NCBI GenBank assembly: GCA_028873535.1
Contig: JAGWIJ010000001.1
Span: forward strand, 39,179 to 103,178
Direction: 5' to 3'
From: Pseudomonadota bacterium
GTDB lineage: Bacteria; Pseudomonadota; Gammaproteobacteria; Burkholderiales; Ferrovaceae
DNA length: 64,000 bases
A program made the translations under genes and the position numbers. Below are positions 40,222 to 52,737 of this stretch, piece after piece (positions within the stretch are counted from its first letter, which is position 1; every line of letters starts with the position of its first letter). Under the pieces are notes generated by a model. That model saw nothing but the letters and a program-made list of their open reading frames with translations. It did not search any database and had not been told where the DNA came from.

Positions 40222-41638
40222 CGCATCCGCCCGCCTCGCCACCGACCTGCAGGCAGCCTTCGGGCCACCGCGCGTGCTCGCCGACGCCGCAGCGCGCGCA
40301 CCCTACGAACGCGACTGGCGTGGCCGCACCGCGGCCGCCTGCGTGGCCGTGCTGTTGCCGCGCAGCGTCGCCGAGGTCCAGGACATGGTGCGCTGGTGCC
40401 ACCGGCACGGTGTCGCCATCGTGCCGCAGGGCGGCAACACCGGCCTGTGCGGCGGTTCGGTGCCCCACCCTGGCACGCAACGGCCGCAGGTGATCCTGGC
40501 GCCAGGACGCCTGCAGACGGTGCGCGCGGTCGATCCGGACAACGACGCCATCACCGTCGAAGCCGGTTGCACTCTGCAGTCGGTACAGGAGCTGGCCGCG
40601 CGGCACGACCGCCTGTTCCCGCTCAGCCTGGCCTCCGAAGGCAGCTGCCAGGTGGGCGGCGCACTCTCGACCAACGCCGGCGGCGTGCAGGTGCTGCGCT
40701 ACGGCAGCATGCGCGCGCTGACGCTGGGACTCGAGGTGGTGCTGCCCGACGGCGCGCTGTGGAGCAGCCTGCGCGGGCTGCGCAAGGACAACACCGGTTA
40801 CGACCTCAAGCAGCTGTTCATCGGCGCCGAAGGCACGCTGGGCATCATCACCGCGGCCACCTTGCGCCTGTTCCCGCTGCCGCAACGTCAGGCCGTGGCC
40901 TGGATCGCCCTGGCCGACGTGCGCCGCGCCCTCGACCTGTTCCATGCCCTGCGCCATCAGATCGGCGACCGCCTGTCGGCCTTCGAGCTGATCGGCAGGC
41001 TGCCGCTCGATCTGGCGATCCGCCATCTGCCGGGTGCGCGCGATCCCCTGTCCGCCGTCCATCCCTGGCAAGTGCTGGTGCAGGCCGACGGCATCGCCGC
41101 CGGCGAATTCGGCGAGCATCTGGCCGCGGTGCTGGCGCGCGTGCCCGACCTGGCCAGCGACGCCGTCATCGCGCAGAGCGAAGCCCAGGCCAGGACCCTG
41201 TGGCAGCTGCGCGAGAACCTGTCCGAGGCGCAGCGCCTGGAAGGGCCCAGCCTCAAGCACGACATCTCGCTGCCGCAGTCGCGCATCGCAGCCTTCATCG
41301 AGCAGGCGCGCACGGCGCTGGAGGCCAGCGAGCCTGGCGTGGCCATCGTGTGCTTCGGCCACCTGGGCGACGGCAACCTGCACTACAACCTGTTTCCCGC
41401 CCGGCGCGACAGCAGCACGGCCGACATCGCGCAGCGCCACGCCAGCCTCACGCGCATCGTGCATGATCTGGTGGCAGCCCACGGCGGCAGCTTCAGCGCG
41501 GAACACGGCATCGGCCAGTTCAAGGTCGACGAACTCGAACGCTACGGCGATCCCGTCGGGCTGCATCTGATGCGCCGCCTCAAGCAGACCTGGGATCCCG
41601 ACAATCTCTTCAACCCCGGAAAGCTCTTTCCACTGTGA
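40214..41638 (+). CDS. FAD-binding oxidase/dehydrogenase (D-2-hydroxyglutarate/glycolate oxidase-like)
   Basis: VPQGGNTGLCGGSVPHPG; GGALSTNAGGVQVLRYGSMR; SAEHGIGQFKVDEL. Confidence 0.92.
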   Translation: MPDASARLATDLQAAFGPPRVLADAAARAPYERDWRGRTAAACVAVLLPRSVAEVQDMVRWCHRHGVAIVPQGGNTGLCGGSVPHPGTQRPQVILAPGRLQTVRAVDPDNDAITVEAGCTLQSVQELAARHDRLFPLSLASEGSCQVGGALSTNAGGVQVLRYGSMRALTLGLEVVLPDGALWSSLRGLRKDNTGYDLKQLFIGAEGTLGIITAATLRLFPLPQRQAVAWIALADVRRALDLFHALRHQIGDRLSAFELIGRLPLDLAIRHLPGARDPLSAVHPWQVLVQADGIAAGEFGEHLAAVLARVPDLASDAVIAQSEAQARTLWQLRENLSEAQRLEGPSLKHDISLPQSRIAAFIEQARTALEASEPGVAIVCFGHLGDGNLHYNLFPARRDSSTADIAQRHASLTRIVHDLVAAHGGSFSAEHGIGQFKVDELERYGDPVGLHLMRRLKQTWDPDNLFNPGKLFPL

Positions 41639-42741
41639 ACTATCCCCACGACGATCTGGCGCTGCACCCGTTGCGCTGGCATGCCGACGGCAGCGCCATC
41701 GAAGTCATCGACCAGACCCGGCTGCCGCACCGCGAAGAGCTGCGGCGCCTGTCCGACCGCAACGCCGTCGCCCAGGCCATCCGCAGCATGGTGGTCCGCG
41801 GCGCCCCGCTGATCGGCGCCTGCGCCGCCTGGGGCCTGGTCTTCGCCTTGCGCGAGGACCCCAGCGACGCCGCGCTGCAGGCATCGGTCCGTATCCTGGC
41901 CGAGACCCGGCCCACCGCCGTCAACCTGGGCTGGGCACTGGCGCGCATGCTGGCGCGCGTGCAGGGCATCGCGCCGGCCTTGCGCGAACAGGCCGCCGTC
42001 GAGGAGGCCATCCAGATCTGCCTGGAGGACATCGAACAGAACCGCCGCATCGGCGAGCACGGCCTGGCGATCCTGCGCCGGCTCCACCATGAGCTGCACC
42101 GCCCGCTGCGCGTGCTCACGCATTGCAATGCCGGCTGGCTCGCCACCCTGCGCTGGGGCACGGCGCTGGCACCTCTGTATCTTGCGCAGCAGGCCGGGCT
42201 GCCGATCGAGGTGTGGGTCGACGAGACGCGGCCGCGCAACCAGGGCGCACTCACCGCCTGGGAGCTCGGGCGTGCCGGCATCGCGCATACCGTGATCGTC
42301 GACAATGCCGGTGGCCACCTGATGCAGCACGGACAGGTCGATCTGGTCATCGTCGGTGCCGACCGCGTCACCGCCACCGGTGACGTGTGCAACAAGATCG
42401 GCACCTATCTCAAGGCCCTGGCGGCGCGCGATTGCAGCGTGCCGTTCTACGCCGCAGTGCCCTCGCCCAGCATCGACTGGCAGGTACGCGACGGCCTGCG
42501 TGAAATCCCGATCGAGGAGCGCCACGCCCAGGAGGTTGCCGGCGTGTCCGGCCTGGACGCCAGCGGTGCCGTCGGCACGCTGCGCCTGTTCCCGGCCCAC
42601 AGCCGCTGCGCCAATCCGGCCTTCGACGTGACGCCGTCACGCCTGGTCGACGGCATCATCACCGAGCACGGCGTCTACCAGGCCAGCGCCGAAGGCCTGG
42701 CGCCGCTCGGCGCCCTGCTGGCGCTGGCAGCCCGACGCTGA
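41635..42741 (+). CDS. mtnA: S-methyl-5-thioribose-1-phosphate isomerase
   Basis: GTG start overlapping the upstream stop (GTGA); MVVRGAPLIGACAAWGL, THCNAGWLATLRWGTALAPLYLAQQAG, GADRVTATGDVCNKIGTY. Confidence 0.95.
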   Translation: MNYPHDDLALHPLRWHADGSAIEVIDQTRLPHREELRRLSDRNAVAQAIRSMVVRGAPLIGACAAWGLVFALREDPSDAALQASVRILAETRPTAVNLGWALARMLARVQGIAPALREQAAVEEAIQICLEDIEQNRRIGEHGLAILRRLHHELHRPLRVLTHCNAGWLATLRWGTALAPLYLAQQAGLPIEVWVDETRPRNQGALTAWELGRAGIAHTVIVDNAGGHLMQHGQVDLVIVGADRVTATGDVCNKIGTYLKALAARDCSVPFYAAVPSPSIDWQVRDGLREIPIEERHAQEVAGVSGLDASGAVGTLRLFPAHSRCANPAFDVTPSRLVDGIITEHGVYQASAEGLAPLGALLALAARR

Positions 42742-42822
42742 CGGGCCGGCAGCCGGGCCACCTGCGACAGCCGGATGGCGCTATCATCCAGGCAAATTTT
42801 TTCCATTCGCCCTGGAGCCATC

Positions 42823-43314
42823 ATGCTGCCCTCACGCGTCGATACTCTGCTGGCCATGCCGATCTTCGGCGGCATCCGTCCCGAGGTGATCGCCGGCCTG
42901 CTTGACCATGCCGCGACCGTCAACGTGGCACCCGGCGAATTCTATTTCCGCGAGGGTGACCGTTCGGAAAGCATGTATGTGCTCGAAACGGGCAAGGTCT
43001 CGCTGCTCAAGCACTGGGGCGGTGCCGCGCATGTCCTGGGCGAACTGCACGAAGGCGACTGCTTCGGCGAAATGGCCCTGCTCGACCTGTTCCCGCGCAG
43101 CGCCTCGGTGCTGGCCGAAACGCCGTGCAGCGCAATCGAGCTCAACACCAGCAGCTTCCACGATCTGTACCAGATCGACATGGAGCAGTTCGCGTTGATC
43201 CAGATGAACATCGCGCGCGAACTCAGCCGGCGTCTGCGCGCAGCCGACGAGCGCCTGTTCCGGGCGTATATCGGCGCCGACGATCCGGCGGCACCCTGGG
43301 CCTACATCGCCTGA
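42823..43314 (+). CDS. Stand-alone cyclic-nucleotide-binding domain protein
   Basis: FREGDRSESMYVLETGKVSLL...GDCFGEMALLDLFPRSASVLA; no HTH in 163 aa. Confidence 0.85.
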   Translation: MLPSRVDTLLAMPIFGGIRPEVIAGLLDHAATVNVAPGEFYFREGDRSESMYVLETGKVSLLKHWGGAAHVLGELHEGDCFGEMALLDLFPRSASVLAETPCSAIELNTSSFHDLYQIDMEQFALIQMNIARELSRRLRAADERLFRAYIGADDPAAPWAYIA

Positions 43315-43349: not shown

Positions 43350-46300
43350 TCAGTGGAAATCGCGTGACGGCGTGCTGAGGCCGCCCAGCCAGGGGCTGCG
43401 ATCGACCAGCCGACGTGCCACCAGATGCAGCACCGGGCCATCGCGCTGGATCACGCCATAGACCGCCAGCAGCGAGGCACCCAGCAGTTCGCGGCGCTGG
43501 CGATCGGCGATGTCGCGCCACACCACCACGTTGACCAGGCCGGTCTCGTCCTCCAGGGTCACGAAGGTCACGCCCGCGGCCGTGCCGGGGCGCTGGCGGC
43601 AGGTCACGATGCCGGCGGCACGCGCCACCTGGCCGTCCGCCAGGCCTTCGAGTTCGGCCGCGCTCAGCAGACGCTCGGCGCTCAGGCGCTGGCGCAGCAG
43701 GGCCAGCGGATGGCGGCGCAGCGTCAGACCCAGCGTGCGGTAGTCCTCGAAGATGTCGCGCCCTTCGCGCGGCACCGGCAACTGCTCCGCCCCTTCGGAC
43801 GCCACCGTGGCGTCGAGCGCGGCGAACAGCGGCAGCGGCTCCTCCACCGCCTGCACCGCCCAGCGCGCGGCATGGCGATGGCCGGCCAGACCGGCCAGGG
43901 CGTCGGCCGCCGCCAGGGCTTCGAGCGCCGGCCGCGTCAGGCCGGCACGGCGCGCCAGATCGGCCACATCGCCGAAAGGACGTTCGGCACGCGCCGCCAG
44001 CACGCGCCGGCCGGCCGCCTCGCCCAGGCCGTGCACGCGCTGCAGTCCCAGGCGCAGCACCTGCTCCGAGGCCAGCGTGGATTCCCAGTCGCTGGCTTCC
44101 ACGCGCACCGGCAGCACGTTCACGCCGTGGCGCTGGGCATCCTGCACCAGCTGCGAGGCCGAATAGAAACCCATCGGCAGCGAATTCAGCAGCGCACAGG
44201 TGAAGGCCGCCGGATGGTGGCGCTTGAGCCAGGCCGAGGCATACACCAGCAGCGCGAAACTCGCGGCGTGCGACTCCGGAAAGCCATACTCGCCGAAGCC
44301 CTGGATCTGCAGGAAGATCTGCTCGGCAAATGCCGCCTCGTAGCCGCGCGCGGTCATGCCGTCGACGATGCGGCTGCGGAAGGGATCCAGGCCGCCCTTG
44401 CGCTTCCACGCCGCCATCGAACGACGCAGCTGGTCGGCTTCGCCGGGCGTGAAGCCGGCGGCGACAATCGCCAGCTGCATCACCTGCTCCTGGAAGATCG
44501 GCACGCCCAGGGTGCGCTCCAGCACCGACTGTACCGCCGGGCTGGGATAGCTGACCGGCTCCAGTCCGCGCCGGCGGCGCAGGTAGGGATGCACCATGCC
44601 GCCCTGGATCGGCCCCGGGCGCACGATCGCCACCTCGATCACCAGATCGTAGTAGGTGCGCGGCTGCAGCTTGGGCAGCATCGCCGTCTGCGCGCGTGAT
44701 TCGATCTGGAACACGCCCACCGTGTCGCCCTGCGACACCATGCGATAGACCTCGGGATCCTCAGGCGGAATGTCGGCCAGGCCGAAGGGGCGTCCGCGCA
44801 GGCCGGCGACCAGTTCGAGGGCGCGACGCAGCGCCGAGAGCATGCCCAGCGCCAGGCAATCGACCTTGAGCAGACCCAGGGCCTCCAGATCATCCTTGTC
44901 CCACTGGATCACGGTGCGACCGCTCATGGCGGCGTTCTCGACCGGCACCAGTTCGGACAGGGGACCACGCGCGATCACGAAACCGCCCACATGCTGCGAC
45001 AGGTGGCGCGGAAAACCGACCAGCGCATTGACCACATCGGCCAGGCGCCTGAGCAGCGGCGCCTCGGGATCGAAGCCCGCCTCGCGCAGGCGCTCGCCGA
45101 CCACGCTGCGGCCGTCCCACCACGCCAGCGAGCGCGCCAGCCGGTCGACCTGGGCCGGGTCCAGTCCCAGCGCCTTGCCGGCATCGCGCATGGCGCTGCG
45201 CGGCCGGTAGCAGATCACGGTGGCCGCCAGCGCGGCACGTTCGCGGCCGTACCTGGCGTAGATGTACTGCATCACTTCCTCGCGCCGCTGGTGCTCGAAA
45301 TCGACGTCGATGTCCGGCGGCTCCTGGCGCTCGCGCGAGATGAAGCGTTCGAACAGCATGGCCATGCGCGCCGGATCCACTTCGGTGATGCCCAGGCAGT
45401 AGCACACCACCGAGTTGGCGGCCGAGCCTCGCCCCTGGCACAGGATGCCGCGGCTGCGTGCGAAGCGCACGATGTCGTGCACGGTCAGGAAGAAGGCCTC
45501 GTAGGCCAGCTCGGCGATCAGTGCCAGCTCATGCTCGATCTGATCCCGGATGCGCGCATGACGCTCGGGTTCCTGCTGCGCCAGGGCGCCGCAGCGGCGC
45601 GCGAAGCCCTGCTCGGTCAGGACGCGCAACTGACCGGTCGGCGTCTGGCCCTCCGGCACCAGTTCGGCGGGATATTCATAGCGCAACTCGTCCAGGCTGA
45701 AGCTGCAGCGGCGCGCGATCTCGACGCTGGCCGCCATGCGCGCCGGACCGTGGATGCGCGCGATGCGCGCGCGTGCGCGCAGGTGACGCTCGCCGTTCGG
45801 GAACAGCGCATAACCGGCCTGCGCCAGGGGAACGCCCAGGCGCACCGCGCTCAGCGTGTCCTGCAGGAAGCGCCGCCCACGCCGGTGCATGTGCACATCA
45901 TTGCTGCACACGCAGGGCAGTCCGCAGTGCGCCGCCAGTTCTTCGCGCAGGGCCTCGCGCGCCGAGCGTCCGGCCGCGGCGAATTCCTCGCAGCCCAGCC
46001 AGATCCGCTCGGCAAAGCGGTCAGCCAGCCACAGCCCCTGTTCGAGCAGGTCGTCGGCGGCCGCGCGCAGCTCGGGATACCAGATCAGCAGGCAGCCCGG
46101 CAGGCCATCGTCCAGATCCTCGAGCAGCACCTGGTACTGCCCCTTGGGGGCGCGCCGACGCGCACGCGTGATCAGGGCGCTCAACCGGCCATAAGCGGCA
46201 CGGTCGCTGGCCAGCACCACCAGATGGAAGACCGGGAGCAGCGAACCCGCGCCCCCCCAGGAAAAACGCAACTCGCTGCCCAGCAGCAACTGCAGCCCCA

Positions 46301-46493
46301 GGCGCCGGGCTTCGACATGCGCGCGCACCACCCCGGCCAGGGAGCATTCGTCGGTCAGCGCCAGGGCCTGGTAGCCCAGGGCATGCGCCTGCGTCACCAG
46401 TTCCTCCGGGTGCGAGGCACCGCGCAGGAAACTGAAATTGCTCAGGCAATGCAGTTCGGCGTAATCGGGTGGGTCGGATTCAGGAGCAGACAT
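43350..46493 (-). CDS. dnaE2: Error-prone DNA polymerase DnaE2
   Basis: ORF 1047 aa: [23 protein letters not shown] (PHP), [45 protein letters not shown], C-terminal OB fold. Confidence 0.96.
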   Translation of the reverse strand: [1047 protein letters not shown]

Positions 46494-46497
46494 GATG

Positions 46498-46513
46498 CTG
46501 TATATTTATACAG
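46498..46513. promoter_or_regulatory. LexA (SOS) box of dnaE2
   Basis: CTGTATATTTATACAG; CTGT-N8-ACAG within the longer palindrome TGATGCTGTATATTTATACAGCATCA; ends 4 nt before the dnaE2 start codon. Confidence 0.9.
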
Positions 46514-46547
46514 CATCAGCGCACCCGATCAAACCAGGGTCCCCCCG

Positions 46548-48647
46548 TCACCAGAGATGCACGCGCCGCTCCGGAGCCAGCCACATGGGATCGCCAGCCT
46601 GGGTGCCGAAGGCGACATGGAAGGCATCCTGGTTGCGCACGGCCAGATTGGTGCGCACCGCGGCCGGCGCGTGCGGATCGGCCTTGAGCCTGGCCACCAG
46701 GTCGGCCTCGCGCTGCTTCGTCATCCAGCTCTGCGCGTAGCTCACGAAAAAGCGCTGGGCGCCGCTCATGCCATCGATCACCGCCGGCTCATGCCCGTTC
46801 AGCGAGGCCTGATAGGCCTTCCACGCGATGGTCAGGCCGGCATTGTCGGCGATGTTCTCACCCAGCGTGAGTTCACCGTTGAGATGGATGCCGGGCACTG
46901 GCGTGACCGCGGCATACTGCTGCACCAGCAGCGCGGTGCGCGCGCGGAAGTGCTCGTGGTCGGCGGCGCTCCACCAGTCGCGCAGATTGCCGGCGCCGTC
47001 GAACTGGCTGCCTTCGTCGTCGAAGGCATGCGACAGCTCGTGTCCGATCACGAAGCCGATGTTGCCGTAGTTGGCGGCGTCATCCACCGCCACATCGAAA
47101 TACGGCGCCTGCAGCTGCGCCGCCGGAAACACGATCTCGTTGAGGGTGGGGTTGTAGTAGGCGTTGACCGTCTGCGGCGTCATGTCCCATTCCTCGCGGT
47201 CCACCGCTTGCCCCAGGTGCGCAAGCTCCCGGCGTGCCTCGAAACGCTGGGCACGCTGCACGTTTTCAAGCAGGTGGCCCGGCACCAGACGCAGCCCGCT
47301 GTAGTCGCGCCAGCGGTCGGGATAGCCCAGCTTGGCGCGGATCTGCGCGAGCTTGGCATGCGCCGCCTCACGCGTCGGCGCTTCCAGCCAGTCCAGGTGA
47401 TCGATGCTGTCGCCATACGCCGCGATCAGGTTGGCCACCAGCTGCTGGATATGCGCCTTGGCCTGCGGCGGAAAATGACGCGCCACATACAGCCGTCCCA
47501 TCGCCTGGCCCAGCGTGCCTTCGATCACCCCCAGTCCGCGCTTCCAGCGCGGCTTCTGCTCGGGCACGCCGCGCAGCACGCCGGATTCGAAGGCGAAATG
47601 CCGGTTGGCCGTCGTGCTGTCCAGCAAGGGCGCGTAGGCGCGCAGCAACTGCCAGCTCAACCAGCTTTTCAGCACCGGCAGCGGCGTGGTCTGCAGGATG
47701 CGGTCCAGGCTGCTGGCATAGCCCGGCTGGCCCACGATCACCGTGCCCGGATCGGCCGGCAGACCCAGCGCGGCGAACCACGCGTCCCAGCGCAGGTGCG
47801 GCATCAGCGCATGCAGTTGCGCCAGCTGGCGTGGATTGTAGGTGCGCACCGGATCGCGATTGGCGACACGGTCCCACTGCGCGCCTGCCAGGCGCGTCTC
47901 GAATGCCAGGATGTCGCGCGCCGCGCGGCGGGGCGCCGGGTCACCGATGCGCCGCAGCTGGGCCTCGGCGTAGCGCACGAACGCCGTGCGCACGGTCCGG
48001 AAGCGCGCCTCGCGCCGGTCCAGGTAGTAGTCGCGGTCGGGCAGCGACAGGCCGCTCTGCGCCACATGCACCAGATAGCGCGTGGCATCGCGTTCGTCCT
48101 GATAGACGCCGAGGTCGATCGGCAGCGCCACCCCCAGCATGCCGAGCTCGCCGAACAGCGCGCCCAGCTCGTCGCGGCTGCGCACGCCATGGATGCGCGC
48201 CAACAAGGGCGCCAGCGGCGCCACCCCGAGCTGGTCACAGCGCGCCTCATCCATGAAATCGCGGAACACGGCGGCGATCATGCCCTCCTCGCTGTCGGAC
48301 GCCAGATCGCGGCGCTGCAGCAGGTCTTCGACCAGGGCGCGCAGTTGCAACTCGGTGCGATCCTGGGTGATGGCATCGATGCCGTAGACCGCGCGATCGA
48401 CCGGGATGGCGGTGCTGTCCAGCCAATGGCCATTGCCGTGGCGGAACAGGTCGACCGTTGCCGGAACGGCGGGATCCATGTAGTCGAGGTTGATGCCCGA
48501 GCGCGGCGTCGCCGCACCCGGTGCCAGGCCTTCGCCATCGGCAGCGAAAGCGCCGGGCTGCGCCAGGCACAAGGCCCCCAGCAGCAGCCCGGTCCACCAG
48601 CGGCACCCACCGCTGGTACGCCTGCCGGCCGGCGAGATCGGGCTCAC
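46548..48647 (-). CDS. M13-family metallopeptidase (neprilysin-like), second copy
   Basis: Zinc motif IGHELSHAFDDEGSQFD, VNAYYNPTLNEIVFPAA; likely GTG start VSPISPAGRRTSGGCRWWTGLLLGALCLAQPGAFA overlapping the upstream stop (GTGA). Confidence 0.93.
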   Translation of the reverse strand: MSPISPAGRRTSGGCRWWTGLLLGALCLAQPGAFAADGEGLAPGAATPRSGINLDYMDPAVPATVDLFRHGNGHWLDSTAIPVDRAVYGIDAITQDRTELQLRALVEDLLQRRDLASDSEEGMIAAVFRDFMDEARCDQLGVAPLAPLLARIHGVRSRDELGALFGELGMLGVALPIDLGVYQDERDATRYLVHVAQSGLSLPDRDYYLDRREARFRTVRTAFVRYAEAQLRRIGDPAPRRAARDILAFETRLAGAQWDRVANRDPVRTYNPRQLAQLHALMPHLRWDAWFAALGLPADPGTVIVGQPGYASSLDRILQTTPLPVLKSWLSWQLLRAYAPLLDSTTANRHFAFESGVLRGVPEQKPRWKRGLGVIEGTLGQAMGRLYVARHFPPQAKAHIQQLVANLIAAYGDSIDHLDWLEAPTREAAHAKLAQIRAKLGYPDRWRDYSGLRLVPGHLLENVQRAQRFEARRELAHLGQAVDREEWDMTPQTVNAYYNPTLNEIVFPAAQLQAPYFDVAVDDAANYGNIGFVIGHELSHAFDDEGSQFDGAGNLRDWWSAADHEHFRARTALLVQQYAAVTPVPGIHLNGELTLGENIADNAGLTIAWKAYQASLNGHEPAVIDGMSGAQRFFVSYAQSWMTKQREADLVARLKADPHAPAAVRTNLAVRNQDAFHVAFGTQAGDPMWLAPERRVHLW

Positions 48648-50671
48648 CAGATCGTCACCCTTTGCTCCGGGGGCAGATAGAGCTGATCGCCCGGCTTGAC
48701 GCCAAAGGCTTCGTAGAAGCCCGGCTGGTTGACCAGCGGCGCGTTGCCGCGCACTTCCATCGGCGAATGCGGGTCGATCTTGAGCAGGCGGATGGCTTCC
48801 GACTCGCGCGCCTTGCCGCGCCATACCTGGGCCCAGCCCATGTACAGGCGCTGCGGACCGGTGAGTCCGTCGATCACCGGCGCGGGCTTGCCGCCCAGCG
48901 CCAGCTGATAGGCCTTGTAGCTGATCGCCAGTCCCGAGTTGTCGGCGATGTTCTCGCCCAGGGTCAGCTTGCCGTTGACGTGGTAGCCCTTCACCGGTTC
49001 GTAGCGTTCGTACTGCGCCACCAGCACATTGGTGCGCGCCTCGAAAGCCTGGTGGTCCTCGGGGGTGAACCAGTCGCGCAGATTGCCGTCGGCGTCGTAC
49101 TGGCTGCCCTTGTCGTCGAAGCCATGGCTGATCTCATGCCCGATCACGGCGCCGATGCCACCGTAGTTGACCGCATCGTCGGCCTCGAAATTGAAGAACG
49201 GCGGCTGCAGGATCGCGGCCGGGAACACGATTTCGTTGAGCGTGGGGTTGTAGTAGGCATTGACCGTCTGCGGCGTCATGTGCCACTCGTCGCGGTCCAC
49301 CGGCTGGCCCAGATGACTGATCTCGCGGCGTGCCGCGAACTCCTGCGCGCGCGCCACGTTGCCGCTGAGGTCATCGGGCATGATCTCGAGACTGCTGTAG
49401 TCGCGCCACTTGGCCGGATAGCCGATCTTGACGGTCAGGCGCGCCAGTTTCTCGCGCGCGCCGGCCCGCGTGCTCTCGCCCATCCAGGGCAGGCCGTCGA
49501 TGCTCTTGCGATAGGCCGCCAGCAGGTTCCCGACCAGGGCATCCATGCGCGCCTTGGCAGTCGGCGGGAAATGCCGTTCCACATAGACCTTGCCGACGGC
49601 TTCGCCCAGCGCGTGTTCGACCACTTCGACCCCGCGCTTCCAGCGCGGACGGTTCTCCGGGATCCCGCGCAGGGTCTTGCCATAGAATTCGAAATCGGCC
49701 GCGACAAAGCGCTGGCTGAGCAGGGGCATCTGCTCACGCAGCACCTGCCACTTGAGATAGGCCTTGAGGTCGGGCAGCGGCGCCTTGTCGACCAGCGGGA
49801 TCACGCCGCTGAAAAAGGACGGTGTGGTCACGATCACTTCGTCGATGAGCGGCAGCGGCAGGCCGCCGGCCGCAAGAAAGCTGTCCCAGTCGAAGCCCGG
49901 CGCGAGGCTCGCGAGTTCGCTGCGCTTGAACTTGTTGTAGCGCCTGACCGGATCGCGCAGTTCCACCTTGGTCCATTGCAGCCTTGCCAGCGCCGTCTCG
50001 AAGGTCATCACACGCGCCGCCATGGCATCGGCATCGTGTTCGCCGGCCATCGCCAGCGCAGCCGCCACATGGTGGACATAGGCTTCGCGCACCTTGACCA
50101 GTTCGTCCTCGCTGCCCAGGTAGTAGTCGCGATCGGGCAGCCCCAGGCCCGCCTGCGCCACATGCAGCAGATAACGCGTCGAGTTGCGCTCGTCCTGCTG
50201 CACGTCGAAGTCGAACGGCGTGGCGACCCCGGCCAGCCCCAGGCTGCCCAGCAGCGCCGGCAGGCCAGCGTGCGAATCGAGCGCGTCGATGCGCGCGAAG
50301 CTGCTGCGCAGCGGCTGCGCGTCCAGCTTCTCGATGCGCGCCTCGTCCATGAAGCTGCGGTACAGGTCGGCGATCTTGCGTGCTTCGCTGCCGGCCGGCA
50401 GGTCCCGGCGCGCCGCCAGGTCCTCGATGATCGCGCGCACCTGCAGTTCGGCGCGGTCGCGCACCTCATCGAAGGCGCCGAAGCGGCCGCGGTCTGCCGG
50501 CAGGGTCGTCTCGCGCAGCCATTTGCCCGAGGTGTAGCGGTACAGGTCGTCCTGGGGACGCACCGCGGCATCGCGGAACTTCAGCTCGATCCCGGCCGGC
50601 TGCGCATCGGCCGCCTCGGCGGCGGCGTGGAAAAAGCACATGGCAATCACTCCCAGGTGGTGCAGTTTCAT
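48644..50671 (-). CDS. M13-family metallopeptidase (neprilysin-like), first copy
   Basis: Zinc motif IGHEISHGFDDKGSQYD, VNAYYNPTLNEIVFPAAI; start MKLHHLGVIAMCFFHAAAEA. Confidence 0.94.
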   Translation of the reverse strand: MKLHHLGVIAMCFFHAAAEAADAQPAGIELKFRDAAVRPQDDLYRYTSGKWLRETTLPADRGRFGAFDEVRDRAELQVRAIIEDLAARRDLPAGSEARKIADLYRSFMDEARIEKLDAQPLRSSFARIDALDSHAGLPALLGSLGLAGVATPFDFDVQQDERNSTRYLLHVAQAGLGLPDRDYYLGSEDELVKVREAYVHHVAAALAMAGEHDADAMAARVMTFETALARLQWTKVELRDPVRRYNKFKRSELASLAPGFDWDSFLAAGGLPLPLIDEVIVTTPSFFSGVIPLVDKAPLPDLKAYLKWQVLREQMPLLSQRFVAADFEFYGKTLRGIPENRPRWKRGVEVVEHALGEAVGKVYVERHFPPTAKARMDALVGNLLAAYRKSIDGLPWMGESTRAGAREKLARLTVKIGYPAKWRDYSSLEIMPDDLSGNVARAQEFAARREISHLGQPVDRDEWHMTPQTVNAYYNPTLNEIVFPAAILQPPFFNFEADDAVNYGGIGAVIGHEISHGFDDKGSQYDADGNLRDWFTPEDHQAFEARTNVLVAQYERYEPVKGYHVNGKLTLGENIADNSGLAISYKAYQLALGGKPAPVIDGLTGPQRLYMGWAQVWRGKARESEAIRLLKIDPHSPMEVRGNAPLVNQPGFYEAFGVKPGDQLYLPPEQRVTIW

Positions 50672-50685
50672 TGCAAAAGGTCTCC

Positions 50686-52737
50686 TCAATCGCCCGATAT
50701 GAACAGACGGGCCTTCAGGTCTTTGAGTTCATCGCGCAGCTTGGCTGCACGCTCGAACTCCAGGTTGCGCGCGGCTTCGTACATCTCCTTTTCGAGACGC
50801 TTGACCGCCTGTGTGAGCTGCTTTTCGTCCATGGCGTCGAAGCGCGCCCCGCTCTCGGCGGCCTTGAGCTCCTGGCGCGCCGACTCGGGATCGTAGATGC
50901 CTTCGATCATGTCCTTGATGCGCTTCTGCACGCCGCGCGGGACCACGCCGTGCGCCTCGTTGTGGGCCACCTGCAGCGCACGCCGCCGGTCGGTCTCGCG
51001 GATCGCCGCGTTCATCGAATCGGTGAGACGGTCGGCATACAGGATCGCCTTGCCGTTGATGTGGCGCGCCGCGCGGCCGATGGTCTGGATCAGCGAACGC
51101 TCCGACCGCAGGAAGCCCTCCTTGTCGGCATCCAGGATCGCCACCAGCGACACCTCAGGGATGTCGAGGCCCTCGCGCAGCAGGTTGATGCCCACCAGCA
51201 CATCGAACACCCCCAGGCGCAGGTCACGGATGATCTCGACGCGCTCGACTGTGTCGACATCCGAATGCAGGTAGCGCACCTTGACCTGATGCTCGGTCAG
51301 GTAGTCGGTCAGGTCCTCCGCCATGCGCTTGGTCAGCGTGGTCACCAGCACGCGCTCACCGGCCCCGGTGCGCACGCACACCTCGGACAGCAGGTCGTCG
51401 ACCTGGCGCTGCGCCGGCCGCACCTCGATCACCGGATCGATCAGGCCGGTCGGCCGCACCACCTGTTCGACCACCTGCCCCGCATGCCGCGCCTCGTAGT
51501 CGGCCGGCGTGGCCGAAATGAACACCGTCTGCGGCATCACGCCTTCGAACTCGTCGAAGCGCAAAGGCCGGTTGTCCAGCGCCGACGGCAGACGGAAGCC
51601 GTAGTTGACCAGGTTCTCCTTGCGCGCACGGTCGCCCTTGAACATGCCGCCGATCTGCGGAATGGTCACATGGCTCTCGTCGATGAACATCAGCGCGCGC
51701 TTCGGCAGGTACTCGAGCAGGGTCGGCGGCGGCTCGCCCGCCTTGCGCCCCGACAGGTGGCGCGAGTAGTTCTCGATGCCCTTGCAGAAGCCGATCTCGG
51801 CCATCATCTCGAGGTCGAAACGCGTGCGCTGCTCGATGCGCTGCAGCTCGACCAGCTTGTGCTCCTGCGCGAAGTACTCGCGCCGCTCTGCCAGTTCGAT
51901 CTTGATCGCCTCGATGGCATCGAGCGTGGTCTGGCGCGGCGTGACGTAATGGCTGGACGGGTACACGGTGAACCGGCCTACGCGCTGCAGCACCTGCCCC
52001 GTCAGCGGATCAAAGGCGGTGAGCGTCTCGAGCTCGTCGTCGAACATGGTCACGCGCAGCGCCGTGTCGCTGTTCTCGGCCGGGAAGATGTCGATGACGT
52101 CGCCGCGCACGCGAAAGGTGCCACGCCGGAAATCCATGTCGTTGCGCGTGTACTGCATTTCGGTCAGGCGCTTGATGATTGCGCGCTGGTCGATGTGCTC
52201 CTTCTCGCGCAGGTGCAGGATCATCTTGTGGTAATCGTCGGGATCACCGATACCGTAGATCGCCGACACCGTGGCCACGATCACGCAGTCCGGCCGCTCG
52301 AGCAGCGACTTGGTCGCCGACAGGCGCATCTGCTCGATGTGCTCGTTGATGCTCGAGTCCTTTTCGATGAACAGGTCGCGCGACGGGACGTAGGCTTCCG
52401 GCTGGTAGTAGTCGTAGTACGAGACGAAATATTCGACCGCATTCTCCGGCAGGAACTCGCGCATCTCGGAGTAGAGTTGGGCTGCGAGCGTCTTGTTCGG
52501 CGCCATCACCACTGCGGGCCGCCCCTGACGGGCAATCACGTTGGCCATGGTGAAGGTCTTTCCGGAGCCGGTCACCCCAAGCAGGGTCTGGTACTGCAGG
52601 CCGTCCTCGATGCCCTCGCACAGCTTGTCGATGGCCTGCGGCTGATCGCCCGCAGGCGAGAACGGCAGGTGCAGCCGATAGGGGCTATTCGGAAAGGTTT
52701 CAACCACTTGTGTTATAATTCCAGGTTGCTTGAGCAA
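50686..52737 (-). CDS. uvrB: Excinuclease ABC subunit B
   Basis: [63 protein letters not shown]-terminal UVR domain. Confidence 0.98.

Follow-up and report, generated by a model that had tools for sequence, protein, structure and literature searches.

A stand-alone dnaE2 gene with a LexA operator reaching its start codon and a predicted leaderless-type SOS transcript in a member of the Ferrovaceae

Among dnaE2 systems, split cassettes are known (PMC8072749, PMC3323433). In Burkholderia cenocepacia, 114 transcripts carry a leader of 10 nt or less (72 at 0 nt and 42 with up to 10 nt); the leaderless set includes 24 tRNAs, and a TA-rich motif lies directly upstream (PMC4603805). In Cupriavidus metallidurans, 4.67% of primary transcription starts are leaderless, and genes for replication, recombination and repair are enriched among them (PMC7563307). 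A proven leaderless SOS mRNA is that of lexA in Mycobacterium tuberculosis, the transcription start of which is the start codon (PMC2897130). The open-access literature searched yielded no report of a leaderless SOS transcript encoding a proteobacterial translesion polymerase. Leaderless is used herein in its usual sense, namely, a leader of 10 nt or less.

The present study analyzed a stretch of 64,000 nt from a Ferrovaceae genome (the window), in which a LexA box adjoins the start codon of dnaE2. We consider it likely that this dnaE2 is a LexA-regulated SOS gene with a leaderless-type transcript, and that a single segment of approximately 25 bp serves it as operator, -10 element, transcription start and start codon. 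The LexA box, the fixed start codon, the lack of a Shine-Dalgarno sequence and of any other nearby -10 element, the conservation within the genus and the recurrence elsewhere are all read from the sequence; LexA binding, the transcription start site and the mode of translation at dnaE2 are predicted from them.

The dnaE2 (imuC) gene (43350–46493, minus strand) encodes an error-prone DNA polymerase of 1047 aa. Its product matched NCBIfam NF004225 over residues 9–1047 with 1470 bits (curated cut-off, 939) and scored 591 bits against the DnaE model NF004226, under the cut-off of 1002; the replicative DnaE is encoded separately on contig C37. The ATG at 46491–46493 (minus strand) is the sole in-frame start between an in-frame stop and the PHP motif. 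This stop, a TAA at 46506–46508 (minus strand), lies within the LexA box as the fifth codon upstream of the ATG, and the ATG at 46493 is, therefore, the earliest possible start. Downstream, the next in-frame ATG, GTG or TTG is a GTG at codon 33, past the PHP motif, which starts at codon 11. A dnaE2 start at any other codon in the window was ruled out on these two grounds, and the start codon is fixed as judged from the reading frame. No Shine-Dalgarno sequence was found before the ATG.

On the minus strand, GGTTTGATCGGGTGCGCTGATG is followed by the LexA (SOS) box CTGTATAAATATACAG (46498–46513; 15/16 match to CTGTATATATATACAG), CATC and ATG, such that 4 nt separate the end of the box from the start codon. 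The LexA 16-mer occurs at one place in the window, where 0.01 matches within 3 mismatches are expected by chance. The genome (3.43 Mb) contains three sites within three mismatches, and the reversed-pattern control gave 0. The box is embedded in a perfect palindrome of 26 nt with 12-bp arms, TGATGCTGTATA-AA-TATACAGCATCA (46493–46518), the last base of which is the A of the ATG. These features support a LexA operator before dnaE2, to which LexA is predicted to bind. The earlier note on this DNA had identified dnaE2, placed a LexA box against a start codon with little room to move and seen no Shine-Dalgarno sequence between them, all of which agree with the above results. The palindrome that it described is present at the position given; however, the perfect repeat is longer and reaches the A of the ATG. 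Similarly, a conserved PHP motif does begin soon after the ATG, but at a distance of 10 codons instead of 11.

Of the other two sites in the genome, one precedes lexA. The third LexA-like site of the genome (L123:1500-1516; G000:C173:15031-15046) is part of a long perfect repeat, GGGCTATA-CTGTACACGTATACAG-TATAGCCC, and the gene 51 nt after it resembles, by eye, a PA0069-type radical SAM protein.

The SOS partners of dnaE2 are located elsewhere in the genome. The lexA gene on contig C79 (249 bits; cut-off, 110.95) has an AGGA sequence and a box, CTGTATAAAAATACAG, 50 nt upstream of its ATG, which is of the same operator type as that of dnaE2. Thus, the genome contains a CTGT-N8-ACAG operator of the beta/gamma LexA regulon and a cognate lexA that itself carries this type of operator. 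An imuA gene (NF033429, 218 bits; cut-off, 150) is followed by a gene whose Y-family (IMS) match is degenerate (33.9 bits) and which we assign as putative imuB by position and similarity, in place of a dedicated model. The lexA, imuA and imuB-like genes are together on C79, apart from dnaE2. No LexA-like box was found upstream of recA in three genomes of the genus (L184, L185 and L186), and recA, which has AGGA, may thus be outside the SOS regulon in them. A second LexA-family protein (L082; G000:C26:14493-15143) scored 98.5 bits, below the LexA cut-off, and is perhaps a prophage repressor or LexA paralogue.

The predicted -10 element of dnaE2, TATAAA (46505–46510, minus strand), lies within the LexA box and, as a 5/6 match to TATAAT, is unique in the vicinity of dnaE2. 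The 226 nt upstream of the box are devoid of TA dinucleotides, and the sole credible sigma-70 -10 element consequently sits in the box. A possible, weak -35 element, TTGATC (46527–46532, minus strand; 4/6 match), is separated from it by a 16-nt spacer; approximately 10% of shuffled upstream sequences yielded a -35 element as good or better. A strict promoter scan found no promoter because TATAAA has no T at -7. Every LexA box resembles a -10 element, and such a match by itself means little. With a 6-nt discriminator after TATAAA, transcription is predicted to start at a G at 46498 (minus strand), with an uncertainty of several nt, giving a 5-nt leader, GCATC. The locus also has the hallmarks of leaderless genes, namely, an AUG start, no Shine-Dalgarno sequence and a -10 element directly upstream, the match of the latter arising in part from the LexA consensus.

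An alternative is that the transcript is strictly leaderless, with TATACA (46499–46504, minus strand) as the -10 element and the A of the ATG as the first base of the RNA. The spacing between TATACA and the ATG suits a leader of 0 nt, and the 72 B. cenocepacia genes whose transcripts begin with the start codon itself (PMC4603805) provide a precedent. However, TATACA is only a 4/6 match, and no usable -35 element was found 15–19 nt from it, the best being TCGGGT at 18 nt. TATAAA is thus the better -10 element and favors a leader of approximately 5 nt over one of 0, which makes a strictly leaderless transcript improbable. The dnaE2 mRNA is, therefore, predicted to be leaderless in the usual sense, with a leader that is probably not exactly 0 nt. 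The earlier note had the correct positions for TTGATC, TATAAA and TATACA and the correct 16-nt spacer, and its proposal that LexA would cover the -10 element agrees with the present finding that this element can only be in the box. It had placed the transcription start 0–6 nt from the ATG; a start near the ATG is also predicted here, whereas the exact 0 through TATACA appears less likely.

We compared these features with 69 genes, with crude start calling, in 346 kb of the same genome (the window and other stretches, partly overlapping). A Shine-Dalgarno match of 3 nt or less was found in 42 of the 69 with this crude start calling; the lack of such a sequence is common in the sample and, hence, says little by itself. 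In contrast to this, -10-like hexamers near the start codon occurred in at most 2 of the 69, and a leaderless layout looks rare in the sample. Since the lexA box is 50 nt from its gene, recA has no box and start-proximal -10 elements are rare in the sample, the short spacing between box and start looks like a property of dnaE2 and not a habit of the genome.

We propose the following model. In undamaged cells, LexA would lie over the -10 element and transcription start of dnaE2, as in ordinary SOS repression. Following DNA damage, LexA would be cleaved and RNA polymerase would take the TATAAA inside the box. The resulting mRNA would have a leader of approximately 5 nt (range, 0–6), and because a leader this short has no room for a Shine-Dalgarno sequence, ribosomes would have to initiate in a leaderless manner at the near-5'-terminal AUG.

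The gene upstream of dnaE2 encodes an M13-type (PepO-like) peptidase in the same orientation (ORF extent, 46548–48824, minus strand; NF052391, 303 bits, below the curated cut-off), and is a possible source of read-through. It is one of two tandem M13-type peptidase genes on the minus strand (46548–50689) between uvrB and dnaE2. An alternative to the proposed model is that dnaE2 is mainly expressed by read-through from the peptidase gene, with a long leader and with LexA as a roadblock. The peptidase stop codon is only 54 nt from the dnaE2 ATG on the same strand, and the intergenic region showed no plausible terminator. However, an 81-nt stretch of the read-through RNA is predicted by folding to form a hairpin that reaches the AUG (-35.8 kcal/mol; z, -4.0), and this RNA has no Shine-Dalgarno sequence. 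Genomes of the same genus also argue against this explanation. Two further dnaE2 genes were found in this genus, in G001 and G002, and in each an in-frame ATG lies 1 nt after the LexA box (CTGTATATTTATACAG-T-ATG in G001 and CTGTATATTCATACAG-T-ATG in G002); in G001, TGGACA-16-TATATT predicts a leader of 2 nt. The upstream gene is a divergent gene in G001 and a transporter gene in G002, and the placement of box and start is unchanged. The layout of dnaE2 is thus kept independently of the upstream gene. Furthermore, read-through from the adjacent gene is impossible in G001 because it is divergent, and dnaE2 needs its own promoter there. We consider read-through unlikely to be the main source of dnaE2 expression, although it may provide basal expression in the present species.

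G001 has a second ATG 22 nt after the box, likewise without a Shine-Dalgarno sequence; in G002, the GTG 58 nt downstream, which has an AGGT, is a possible, less likely, start. From G003 and G004, which also belong to the genus, only DnaE-type matches were obtained. Near the 3' end of dnaE2 lies mtnA, which, unlike the changing upstream genes, also adjoins dnaE2 in G001 and G002; in the window, a CRP-like gene is located between mtnA and dnaE2 (features at 41635–42741 and 42775–43314).

The layout recurs in other lineages. We collected 40 dnaE2 loci with a LexA box from the closest relatives and from scans of the order (399 genomes) and class (369 genomes), and defined the trait as an in-frame ATG inside the box or within 10 nt after it with a Shine-Dalgarno match of less than 4 nt. 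The trait was present in 15 of the 40 loci examined, a proportion biased towards short spacing because the scans of the order and class restricted the distance between the box and PHP motif; in the first, less biased set, it was present in approximately 10 of 22. Among its carriers are Duganella sp. BJB476 (L074; 4 nt), a second Duganella (8 nt), a Zoogloea MAG (7 nt) and other relatives (3–5 nt). In one genus of the same order (L096 in G032 and L194 in G081), the dnaE2 ATG lies within the LexA box (CTGTATTAAATGACAG and CTGTACATAATGACAG, respectively), 8 nt after TATACT, with a predicted leader of 1 nt; the layout is at its most extreme in these two. A quick tree of 111 DnaE2 proteins, the deep branches of which are weak, requires 10 changes of the trait, at least 3 of them forced by well-supported branches. 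The extended LexA consensus ACAGTA easily creates an ATG, and a box beside an ATG is, thus, little evidence in itself; many of the scan matches with a LexA box next to an ATG open no clear gene. Longer-spaced dnaE2 genes with a box also exist, a few with a clear Shine-Dalgarno sequence (AAGGAG in L197 and AGGTGA in L196).

A promoter upstream of the box that is read by an alternative sigma factor, with a normal leader and with LexA blocking elongation, might be suggested by the weak sigma-70-type -35 element and by the 15–30 nt that separate box and start in other boxed dnaE2 genes, but is very unlikely given that the 226 nt upstream hold no sigma-70-like -10 element, that there is no Shine-Dalgarno sequence to exploit a leader and that the short spacing is conserved in three species of the genus.

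A LexA box 2–7 nt from an ATG is likewise present at other SOS-type genes of the order (L138, L143, L144, L157 and L161); these genes are lexA, umuD-like, rSAM_link_UDG (553 bits) and dinB-like genes. Short-leader SOS genes may, therefore, extend beyond dnaE2. The DnaE2 of a MAG labelled Klebsiella pneumoniae (L041) falls among those of uncultured gammaproteobacteria, and the label of this MAG is probably wrong.

The inverted repeat often extends beyond the box. Across the 40 dnaE2 loci, the box flanks formed 190 pairs, compared with a mean of 141 (sd, 9.5) for flanks swapped between loci, and a value as high as 190 was reached in 0 of 5000 permutations. At 8 of the 40 loci, the arms continue for 8 nt or more past the core (one mismatch allowed), versus 0.5% of exchanged pairs. 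The ATG is inside an arm in L029, L085 and L198, as are both the Shine-Dalgarno sequence and ATG in L196. Long inverted repeats surround the dnaE2 boxes of L029, L196, L209, L002, L061, L056 and L085, with arms of up to 15–16 nt beyond the box, and often include the start codon or Shine-Dalgarno sequence. The extension is absent in G001, and 5 of 89 LexA-like boxes outside dnaE2 also have it; the idea that the extended hairpin is unique to dnaE2 was, therefore, rejected.

In fold-back inhibition of the IS10 transposase and phage T4 gene e, a repeat hides the start site only in mRNAs that enter from upstream. We tentatively speculate, at odds below even, that the operator of stand-alone dnaE2 genes acts similarly at two levels. 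As DNA, it would shut the promoter through LexA; as RNA, transcripts entering from upstream would fold over the start codon, and over the Shine-Dalgarno sequence where present. The SOS transcript, which would start inside the repeat and be leaderless or nearly so, is predicted by folding to be almost unstructured in the present dnaE2 and would alone be translatable, such that no mutagenic polymerase would be made accidentally. Since the hairpin is neither universal (G001) nor restricted to dnaE2, we keep this as a hypothesis. It differs from the IS10 and T4 gene e cases in that the dnaE2 repeat would, in addition, serve as the operator of a repressor and in that folding alone suggests it.

If the proposed model is true, the synthesis of a mutagenic polymerase would depend on leaderless translation, and the dnaE2 operator would be unable to drift without altering the start codon. 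Since the layout recurs in several lineages, the model can be tested in culturable relatives, such as Duganella. The ingredients are known; the open-access papers searched appear to contain no description of a translesion polymerase gene with operator, promoter and start codon fused, or of the repeated occurrence of such a fusion.

The present locus shares with known dnaE2 systems a DnaE2 with a CTGT-N8-ACAG LexA box and the presence of lexA, imuA and an imuB-like gene. However, dnaE2 stands alone here and its operator runs into the start codon, whereas theirs lies upstream of a leader. Similar to M. tuberculosis lexA, dnaE2 is a probable SOS gene with a start site predicted at or near the start codon; the two differ in phylum and LexA box, and the M. 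tuberculosis gene encodes a regulator instead of a polymerase. As in betaproteobacterial leaderless mRNAs, a TA-rich element directly before the start codon takes the place of a Shine-Dalgarno sequence. In contrast to these mRNAs, the 5' end of dnaE2 is predicted from sequence, and its TA-rich element doubles as the putative LexA operator.
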